Position numbers and translations under genes: made by a program. From Phaeobacter sp. 11ANDIMAR09 (GTDB lineage Bacteria; Pseudomonadota; Alphaproteobacteria; Rhodobacterales; Rhodobacteraceae): a stretch of DNA of 64,000 nt. Position 1 is the first letter of the stretch. The number at the start of each line of letters is the position of its first letter. Shown in pieces: positions 6,971-8,553 of the stretch. The stretch is from contig NZ_LIKT01000001.1 in the NCBI RefSeq assembly GCF_001294455.1, forward strand, positions 1 through 64,000. Reading direction: 5' to 3'. The notes below the pieces were generated by a model. It saw only the letters and a list, made by a program, of their open reading frames with translations, was not told the DNA's origin and searched no databases.

Positions 6971-7678
6971 ATGTCCCAGACCACAGCCGACGACCGCCTG
7001 ATTGTTGCCATGGATGTTCCGGATGCACTCGCTGGCCTAAAACTGGCCGAGCAGCTGGGCGATGCGGTGTCCTTCTACAAGATCGGCCTGGGCATGCTCA
7101 CTGGCGGCGGGCTCGCGTTGGCCAATGAGATGAAACAGGAACTGGGCAAGCGCATCTTTCTCGATATGAAGCTGTTTGACATCGGTGCAACGGTGGAAAA
7201 GGCCGTGCGCGGTTTGGCCCAGTTTGATCTGGATTTCCTCACCGTACATGGCGACCCCTATGTGGTGCGCGCCGCCAAGGAAGGCGCTGCGGGCAAGGAC
7301 ATGAAGATCCTCGCCGTGACCATCCTCACCTCGCTGGACCGCGGAGATCTGGACGGCGCACTGATCAAACCCGGCGAGATTCGCGATCTGGTGCAGGAGC
7401 GCGCCGGCAAGGCCTTTGCTTCTGGCGCCGACGGGGTGATTGCCAGCCCACAGGAGGCCGCGCTGATCCGCGCCCTGCCCGAAGCCAATGGCAAGCTGAT
7501 TGTCACCCCCGGTGTGCGTCCTACGGGTACAGCTCTGGGTGATCAAAAGCGGGTCGCGACCCCGGGTGCCGCCATTGCAGACGGTGCAGATCACATCGTG
7601 GTGGGCCGCCCCATCTGGCAGGCCGAAAGCCCCCGAGCAGCGGCATTGGCCATTCTGGATGAGCTTCGCAGTCTCTAA
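6971..7678 (+). CDS. pyrF: PyrF, orotidine 5'-phosphate decarboxylase
   Basis: This 235-residue class I OMP decarboxylase carries out the last step of UMP synthesis (orotidine 5'-phosphate to UMP and CO2). The catalytic Asp-Lys-Asp array is visible in FLDMKLFDIGATV (about residues 59-71), and the phosphate-binding C-terminal loop in ADHIVVGRPIWQA. The start is supported by GGAGAAGCCTC just upstream. It diverges from clpB across a 250-base spacer. The 3' side carries two strong hairpins (7735-7773 and 7808-7840) before the structured RNA candidate. Confidence 0.97.
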   Translation: MSQTTADDRLIVAMDVPDALAGLKLAEQLGDAVSFYKIGLGMLTGGGLALANEMKQELGKRIFLDMKLFDIGATVEKAVRGLAQFDLDFLTVHGDPYVVRAAKEGAAGKDMKILAVTILTSLDRGDLDGALIKPGEIRDLVQERAGKAFASGADGVIASPQEAALIRALPEANGKLIVTPGVRPTGTALGDQKRVATPGAAIADGADHIVVGRPIWQAESPRAAALAILDELRSL

Positions 7679-7734
7679 AGCTTCAAACAGGCGCTGGCCG
7701 GGTCAAGAACCTTCCAGAAATCAGGGATATTTAG

Positions 7735-7773
7735 GAGGGCGTTTTGCCAATCAGAACGGCAATGAGCGCCCTC
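7735..7773 (+). other. Two-tier hairpin in the pyrF 3' region
   Basis: An outer 7-bp stem (GAGGGCG at 7735-7741, CGCCCTC at 7767-7773) encloses an inner 5-bp stem (TTGCC at 7744-7748, GGCAA at 7758-7762). It lies 57 bases after the pyrF stop. No T-tract follows, so it may be an mRNA-stabilising end or part of a Rho-dependent terminator rather than an intrinsic one. Confidence 0.4.
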
Positions 7774-7807
7774 AGAACTCCAGACTCCCATAAAATCAGC
7801 ACAAAAT

Positions 7808-7840
7808 AACTCCGGACATGCTTCCGTCATGCCCGGAGTT
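7808..7840 (-). other. Strong 13-base-arm hairpin between pyrF and the RNA candidate
   Basis: The arms AACTCCGGACATG (7808-7820) and CATGCCCGGAGTT (7828-7840) pair over 12 of 13 positions around a 7-base loop. On the minus strand it is followed by ATTTTGTGCTGATTTT, so it could be an intrinsic terminator for minus-strand transcription. No minus-strand gene ends just before it, however; the nearest, the NUDIX gene, stops at 8155. Its role is therefore unclear. Confidence 0.4.
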
Positions 7841-7890
7841 AACGCGCACGCATCGAGTTTACGTAAGGTCAATGCGCTGTATTCAGTTGG

Positions 7891-8096
7891 AAATTTCATC
7901 ACCGGGCGACAACTGTGCCAAATTGTCCCGTGACGGGAAAGCCACAGGCCGGGGGGAGGCCTCGGCCGCAACACCAGATGAAATTTGCGAAAGCCTATGA
8001 GATAGGCGATTCTAACCTAGAGACACTCCCCGACGGGCTCCTCTTCCTGAGGTCCGTCTTCCTTACCCCCGCCCCAGAGCGGGGGGGTTTTTTCCC
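7891..8096 (+). ncRNA. Candidate structured small RNA of about 205 nt, unclassified
   Basis: This gene-free stretch folds almost completely on paper and ends in a strong plus-strand terminator. A perfect 10-bp long-range helix (AAATTTCATC at 7891-7900 with GATGAAATTT at 7977-7986) encloses two hairpins (7903-7930; 7947-7967 with an 8-bp stem). It is followed by hairpins at 7993-8007 (GCCTAT-GAG-ATAGGC) and 8032-8058 (loop CTCTTCCT, pyrimidine-rich and possibly anti-Shine-Dalgarno), then the terminator. A weak promoter is possible upstream (TTTACG near 7858, TATTCA near 7880). I could not match it to tmRNA, RNase P RNA, SRP RNA or a known riboswitch by eye; 6S-like RNA is not excluded. Confidence 0.45.
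8066..8096 (+). terminator. Rho-independent terminator of the RNA candidate
   Basis: A 7-bp all-G/C stem (CCCCCGC at 8066-8072, GCGGGGG at 8079-8085) with a 6-base loop is followed by GGTTTTTT. The orientation is plus strand. No protein gene on the plus strand ends within 380 bases upstream, so it most likely ends a non-coding transcript. Confidence 0.8.
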
Positions 8097-8154
8097 GAAA
8101 AATCCAACCAAACCAACCCGCAGAGGCGATTCCTTGGTGAATCGCGCCCTGCAA

Positions 8155-8553
8155 TCAGTGGCCAAGATAGCTTTGCAGCTGTTCGGCAAAAGGGGGCACG
8201 GCCAGGGCATGGTCGCAATAGCTGACAGGGTCCATCAATTGCCAATACTGCCCCTCGGAGCCAAGTTGGACTTGGTTCACCAGATCCGCCGGTTGATGAC
8301 TGACAAAGAACCAAACCAACCCACGCGGGCGCTGATAGCTGTTGGACCAGCTCAGTTCTGATGTCGGGATTGTCAGGCCAACCTCTTCCAGGGTTTCCCG
8401 CAACACGCAATCTTCTGGGCTCTCGGTGCCTTCGCGCCCTCCGCCCGGCAGATCCCAATAGCCAGGATAGGGAATATCCGGCTTGTCATCGCGCTTGATG
8501 ACCAAAAGCTGTGGACCTAGAAACAGGGCCAATTTTGCACCGGAAAAAGACAT
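8155..8553 (-). CDS. NUDIX hydrolase
   Basis: This 132-residue protein has a perfect NUDIX box: G-x5-E-x7-RETLEEVGL, beginning in GGGREGTESPED. The family hydrolyses nucleoside diphosphates linked to another group, often as a pool-cleaning step; the substrate cannot be read from this sequence. The start at 8553 (MSFSGAKLALFLG) begins just at the fold and follows an AGAGAT motif. The longer open frame to 8766 overlaps dinB and is rejected. It is divergent from dinB with only about 96 bases between. Confidence 0.85.
   Translation of the reverse strand: MSFSGAKLALFLGPQLLVIKRDDKPDIPYPGYWDLPGGGREGTESPEDCVLRETLEEVGLTIPTSELSWSNSYQRPRGLVWFFVSHQPADLVNQVQLGSEGQYWQLMDPVSYCDHALAVPPFAEQLQSYLGH

Follow-up and report, generated by a model that had tools for sequence, protein, structure and literature searches.

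The interval between pyrF and a convergent NUDIX gene, positions 7891-8096 of the window (the whole 64,000-nucleotide stretch of DNA that was analysed), probably contains a stand-alone small RNA (sRNA) gene with a regulated promoter of its own, and the sequence of the RNA suggests that it acts in trans on ribosome-binding sites. The conserved RNA is best read as approximately the last 74 nt of the interval, about a third of the length proposed in a preliminary description of this DNA, which had taken all of it for one structured RNA. As far as tested the gene is real, ordinary in kind and unclassified, and because Rfam 15 lacks it, routine annotation passes it over. Roseobacters abound in the sea, and to our knowledge only a few of their sRNAs have been characterized in any depth. 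A syntenic RNA that occurs as a single strong copy and combines a covarying stem with a constant loop and a readable promoter lends itself well to experimental study.

The locus and the extent of the RNA

The window comes from a 4.7 Mb assembly of Rhodobacteraceae type. The upstream neighbour of the interval is pyrF (6971-7678, plus strand, Pfam OMPdecase); on the other side the NUDIX gene runs convergently on the minus strand, with its stop at 8155, and dinB lies beyond it. About 340 nt separate the pyrF stop from the proposed sRNA, which has the following parts.

8020-8093, plus strand: proposed sRNA of about 74 nt, running from a predicted start to the T run of the terminator
8020-8031, plus strand: single-stranded 5' end GAGACACTCCCC, complementary to G-rich Shine-Dalgarno (SD) sequences and unpaired in predicted folds
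8032-8058, plus strand: hairpin 1, defined by arm pairing and covariation, its loop carrying TCTTCCTG at 8042-8049
8059-8065, plus strand: linker TTCCTTA, which reads ACCT(CC) in most other genera aligned
8066-8093, plus strand: Rho-independent terminator with its stem at 8066-8085 and T run at 8088-8093

Read in order, the proposed RNA consists of an unpaired 5' end (GAGACACUCCCC), a covarying hairpin with the loop UCUUCCUG, a C-rich linker and a terminator. Two elements of the preliminary description are plainly present here, namely the plus-strand terminator, formed by the stem at 8066-8085 and its T run, and the 3' hairpin ahead of it with a pyrimidine-rich loop, CTCTTCCT.

Conservation and covariation of the 3' module

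In family-wide alignments the constant part of the locus is the 3' module. The 155 loci that could be parsed reduce to 129 unique sequences, and in these the arms of hairpin 1 pair in 1024 of 1032 cells, a count for which the left-arm offset was picked to give the best pairing; when the right arms were permuted 1000 times the mean was 973 and the maximum 989 of 1032 cells. Counting only the 32 distinct arm pairs, 249 of 256 cells are paired versus a permuted mean of 227 and maximum of 238. Three of the eight pairs of the stem have changed on both sides among 49 sequences, and none of 500 shuffles equalled the covariation score of the whole structure (49 sequences), a comparison in which kinship alone can beat the shuffles. 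The 5' ACTCCCC is constant in nearly all homologues, its letters being partly imposed for the loci found by pattern scan; one locus (L012), which lies outside the parsed set, has CCTCCCC.

Fold stability in the homologues draws the boundary of the conserved RNA. Outside the genus, 60 of 62 sequences have z < -2 for the 3' module (median -3.27), versus 13 of 62 for the 100 nt upstream of it (median -1.12), and it is this comparison that places the conserved RNA in roughly the last 74 nt. Among 12 congeners the module reaches z < -2 in 10, the window's copy being outside those 10, and the 5' 129 nt reach it in three, the window being one of them. The window's own 74 nt are not outstandingly stable (z -1.14, with 23 of 200 shuffles as good). 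Its own 5' segment folds well (z -2.50), which is why structure was seen there when this sequence was read by itself.

Aligned across the 12 congeners, the locus appears as a series of conserved blocks joined by spacers that are variable in sequence but nearly constant in length. In order the blocks are TTACCCTACGTCAA upstream, CTGTGCCAAATTGTC.CGTGACGGGAA.GCCACA, ATTTGCGAAA, GATTCT, and an unbroken GAGACACTCCCCTGACGAGCTCCTCTTCCTGAGGCTCGTC plus terminator.

Distribution and synteny

All 12 genomes of the genus, the window's own included, match the element (G005 only as two short pieces), and every congener match lies between pyrF and NUDIX/dinB. A covariance model covering all 181 nt matched 49 of 296 family genomes, and all 29 non-self loci that it returned adjoin pyrF, although pyrF is absent from the model. 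A model of the 3' module alone, R3, for which 49 of the 62 sequences were used and the structure was supplied by hand, matched 55 of 395 family genomes at E <1e-12, followed by a gap to 1.8e-7. Each of the 55 genomes has exactly one strong copy, and pyrF is directly upstream in all 55. An earlier model of the module, R2, was discarded after misaligned left arms cost it hairpin 1.

A pattern scan of public genomes yielded at least 115 stretches, in Ruegeria, Leisingera, Phaeobacter, Roseobacter, Tateyamaria, Sulfitobacter and others; this collection overlaps that of the family genomes, so the two sets of counts are not additive. In 109 of the 115 matches listed, pyrF immediately precedes the element in the same orientation; the remaining six lie within 422 bases of the end of their stretch on the pyrF side. 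The pattern demanded ACTCCC, RRCGR, CTTCCTG and YYCGT-type letters, and invariance at these positions is therefore partly imposed for the pattern loci; loci returned by the 181-nt covariance model carry the same letters with few exceptions. Thirty genomes without a hit were tried, all of which have pyrF and show no module in the approximately 420 nt downstream of it, and the element is thus a feature of a lineage rather than of pyrF in general. An order-level search gave, among the matches listed, members of the same family only.

Below the gap, 14 weaker R3 matches (E 1.8e-7 to 3.1e-4) were inspected in their surroundings; 13 of them are without pyrF within the fetched stretch, and 12 of these 13 are terminator-like and lack TCTTCCTG. 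The match in G200 (E 2.8e-5) sits at pyrF-NUDIX-dinB and is a divergent homologue. The best match away from pyrF, in G072 (L190, about 2514-2593, E 1.8e-7), follows a different gene and has a hairpin, GGCGAACC/GGTTCGCC, with a CCTTCCTT loop and then a terminator; it resembles hairpin 1, which could make it a distant relative, or else a look-alike.

Searches for known RNA families and 6S RNA

The preliminary description had called the RNA unclassified, and its conservation, its compensatory changes and its absence from Rfam 15 bear this out. No family reaches its cut-off on the interval: at the gathering score the window gives tRNA only, permissive settings over 7670-8160 give six sub-threshold matches (E 0.11 to 8.1), none of them 6S, and 20 homologous loci give no match.

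6S RNA is a long rod with a central bubble that mimics an open promoter. The conserved structure of the pyrF-linked RNA differs from this in being one hairpin followed by a terminator hairpin, and the congener consensus fold shows no rod. The 6S model, RF00013, has no match in the window at the gathering score, nor in 7670-8160 at E up to 10, so that the earlier suggestion of a 6S-like RNA has to be given up. In the window's own genome RF00013 finds nothing at E up to 0.001, a null that gives no location for that genome's 6S RNA, and the same model does match in Caulobacter. The 6S RNA of Ruegeria pomeroyi, 158 nt long, was found through Rfam (PMC4809877); what it shares with the element, as described there, is that it is non-coding and of a length near that first proposed here.

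The upstream region as a probable promoter

Positions 7891-8019 behave like promoter DNA, and their sequence is better explained in this way than as RNA. The candidate elements in and near this region are listed below.

7858-7872, no strand assigned: operator-like motif TTTACGTAAGGTCAA, matching the palindromic TTGACGTNAGGTCAA
7913-7928, no strand assigned: CTGTGCCAAATTGTCC, a conserved extension on the upstream side of the dyad, specific to the genus and hardly varying among 12 congeners
7929-7946, no strand assigned: dyad CGTG-N10-CACA, a probable protein-binding site with its centre at about -81 to -82
7985-7990, plus strand: weak -35-like TTGCGA, 17 bp before the -10-like box, within the congener-conserved ATTTGCGAAA
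8008-8013, plus strand: -10-like box GATTCT, a NANNNT hexamer, from the de novo motif search

In 119 of 128 sequences a NANNNT hexamer stands 10-15 nt ahead of ACT, versus 34-45 of 128 in four control windows of equal width, the 10-15-nt window having been picked after viewing the sequences. In 91 less redundant sequences a de novo motif search returned GGCGATTCTG, which in 48 of them stops 10 nt short of ACT. A consensus promoter scan listed no site in the interval. GACACT was considered as a -10 box and set aside, since its second letter varies (ATTACT, GTTACT and AGGACT occur), as was a sigma-54 promoter, for which, set against the generally known consensus, there is no GG at the expected place.

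Farther upstream, the dyad TGTG-N10-CACA, scored at seven or eight of its eight letters, is found in 117 of 128 unique sequences versus 3 of 128 shuffled ones (each shuffle control for dyads and motifs is a single mononucleotide shuffle per sequence), and in 105 of the 117 carriers it stands 76-78 nt before ACT. Its outer letters hardly vary, and its inner pairs change without compensation: among 127 sequences, 31 have G/A at pair 4, and C/A or C/C is common at pairs 5 and 6. Uncompensated inner changes together with a near-fixed distance are more easily reconciled with DNA to which a protein binds than with a stem in RNA. Of the 128 sequences, 45 (for example L019, L025 and L038) carry a second palindrome, GTCAGGAATTCCTGAC, versus 1 of 128 shuffled, and in 42 of the 45 it ends 40-44 nt before ACT; the congener alignment shows it in neither the window nor its genus. 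The palindromic TTGACGTNAGGTCAA occurs in 38 of 128 sequences versus 1 of 128 shuffled, and depending on the genus it is found right before ACTCCCC, about 50 nt upstream (in a few), or about 120 nt upstream.

If GATTCT, or TAAGTT in its place, is the -10 box, transcription would start on the G of GAGAC (8020), and the dyad centres would fall near -42 and -81, the usual places for activators. Weak core elements combined with one or two conserved operator dyads suggest a promoter that is probably switched on by activators. A strict search pattern for the first dyad matches six times, in 5 of 12 genomes; three of these sites are at the sRNA locus and three elsewhere, with none in the window's own genome. 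A wider regulon was not seen in the 12 genomes, with a pattern too strict for exclusion.

Alternative explanations

The claim of the preliminary description, a single structured RNA of about 206 nt with an enclosing 10-bp long-range helix as its main structural argument, amounts to proposing that the 5' blocks function as RNA in a molecule of about 200 nt (7891-8093). These blocks are indeed conserved in the genus, the window's 5' segment does fold well, and the perfect 10-bp complement between 7891-7900 and 7977-7986 is present in the window's sequence. Folded whole, the interval gains slightly in stability over its shuffles (z -1.64, equalled by 11 of 200), and the helix is missing from its minimum-energy fold, appearing when 7891-8094 is folded. 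In the 12-congener alignment 75.0% of helix cells are paired versus 72.7% in shuffles, 67 of 500 shuffles being as high, and 53 of 500 are as high for its covariation. Predicted folds contain the helix in only two of the 12 congeners, the window with 10 of 10 pairs and L007 with 9 of 10, and the other ten contain none of its pairs. In L007 some of the pairs are kept by two-sided changes, the sole point in the helix's favour, and the compensatory changes sought in homologous intervals are found in hairpin 1 and, for the long-range helix, among the 12 congeners in L007 alone. The dyad changes without compensation, the upstream 100 nt miss z -2 in 49 of 62 homologues, and the -10-like box and dyads keep a constant spacing, all of which count against 5' blocks that work as RNA, and we consider the longer molecule quite improbable. 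The helix is instructive as a convincing single-sequence fold that is nevertheless largely private to what appears to be the promoter DNA of one genome. On balance the preliminary observation is partly confirmed, and the interpretation placed on it partly supported.

Slightly less remote, though still doubtful, is the idea that the module is the 3' untranslated region and terminator of pyrF, perhaps cut by RNase E into an sRNA. Two points favour it: the module always follows pyrF closely in the same orientation, and several genera have a dyad that starts only a few bases away from where pyrF ends. Against this stand the gap after the pyrF stop, which in the window measures about 340 nt, the -10-like box and dyads at set distances ahead of the module, and the 30 genomes of 30 that have pyrF and no module in the approximately 420 nt downstream. 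Instead of pairing with mRNAs, the same RNA could bind and titrate a protein or the ribosome, with the invariant loop UCUUCCUG on its covarying stem as a possible protein site; the three C-rich stretches fit SD pairing, and we regard titration as unlikely. The least probable explanation by a wide measure is a small protein encoded in the interval. Open reading frames do cross the region mechanically, for example at 7915-8361, but single-base indels between congeners occur within the module and would shift any reading frame there.

Proposed function and relation to known sRNAs

For the stand-alone sRNA gene that we favour, RNA polymerase would start near 8020 and stop at the terminator at 8066-8093. 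The product, about 74 nt long, would begin with an unpaired C-rich 5' end, continue with a hairpin that presents UCUUCCUG and then the C-rich linker, and finish in the terminator hairpin. Three stretches, ACUCCCC at the 5' end, UCUUCCU, and in most other genera ACCUCC before the terminator, are complementary to SD-type sequences, and on this complementarity the RNA most likely acts in trans. Judged by base complementarity alone, pairing with SD sequences is its most likely activity; the RNA would cover ribosome-binding sites and lower the translation of several mRNAs, perhaps with Hfq. Free C-rich stretches, a stem-loop and a terminator, the general features of trans-acting anti-SD sRNAs, are all found in it.

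The closest functional parallel is NfeR1, of the alpha-r14 family in the Rhizobiales, which is described as having three hairpins, each with an identical CCUCCUCCC in unpaired regions, and is reported to be a trans-acting translational repressor whose promoter has LsrB and NtrC sites (PMC10746234). As far as that account goes, the two share unpaired anti-SD stretches and a promoter of their own with a conserved upstream stretch, which is bound by regulators in alpha-r14. They differ in that the window's RNA is one hairpin plus a terminator, with the loop UCUUCCUG and no CCUCCUCCC in its 74 nt. By analogy, the pyrF-linked RNA likely works like the NfeR1 kind without being a member of it by sequence or architecture.

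CcsR sRNAs, which carry a C-rich motif, are like the present element sRNAs of the Rhodobacteraceae. In Rhodobacter sphaeroides CcsR1-4 are described as a set of four RNAs transcribed together with a gene for a DUF1127 protein (PMC10253847); the pyrF-linked sRNA differs from what is described there in having pyrF, NUDIX and dinB as neighbours and in occurring as a single strong copy in each genome. StsR (RSs0827) of R. sphaeroides is likewise presented as a Rhodobacteraceae sRNA (PMC8307010, PMC3688512, PMC3413700). A survey of sRNAs in R. pomeroyi, which names public RNA-seq data (ArrayExpress E-MTAB-4468), gives its trans-sRNAs without coordinates in the available parts of the main text (PMC4809877), and one in Paracoccus reports sRNAs conserved in Rhodobacteraceae, none of which is tied to the pyrF-linked locus in the available portion of that report (PMC5107571). 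The available portions of the literature tie nothing to this locus; the R. pomeroyi trans-sRNA coordinates are given in a supplement, and earlier detection there is possible.

More tentatively, and with a good deal less confidence than we attach to the gene itself, the element may be the founding member of an sRNA family specific to roseobacters, a compact RNA with up to three anti-SD modules that would act as a broad translational brake. It would be driven by activator sites that genera gain, lose or move, and would have stayed in the pyrF-dinB interval throughout the lineage's history. If this is true, marine heterotrophs would have in it a regulator with a control signal that could be traced from its promoter.

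Other elements near the locus

DnaA-box-like sequences, similar to TTATCCACA, are seen downstream of pyrF in several genomes, both with and without the sRNA (L221, L223, L032 and L041). On the minus strand, 7807-7841 forms a strong hairpin followed by a T run, for which a counterpart is not evident in the congener alignment. This is perhaps the terminator of the NUDIX transcript, in which case that transcript would pass antisense through the sRNA.
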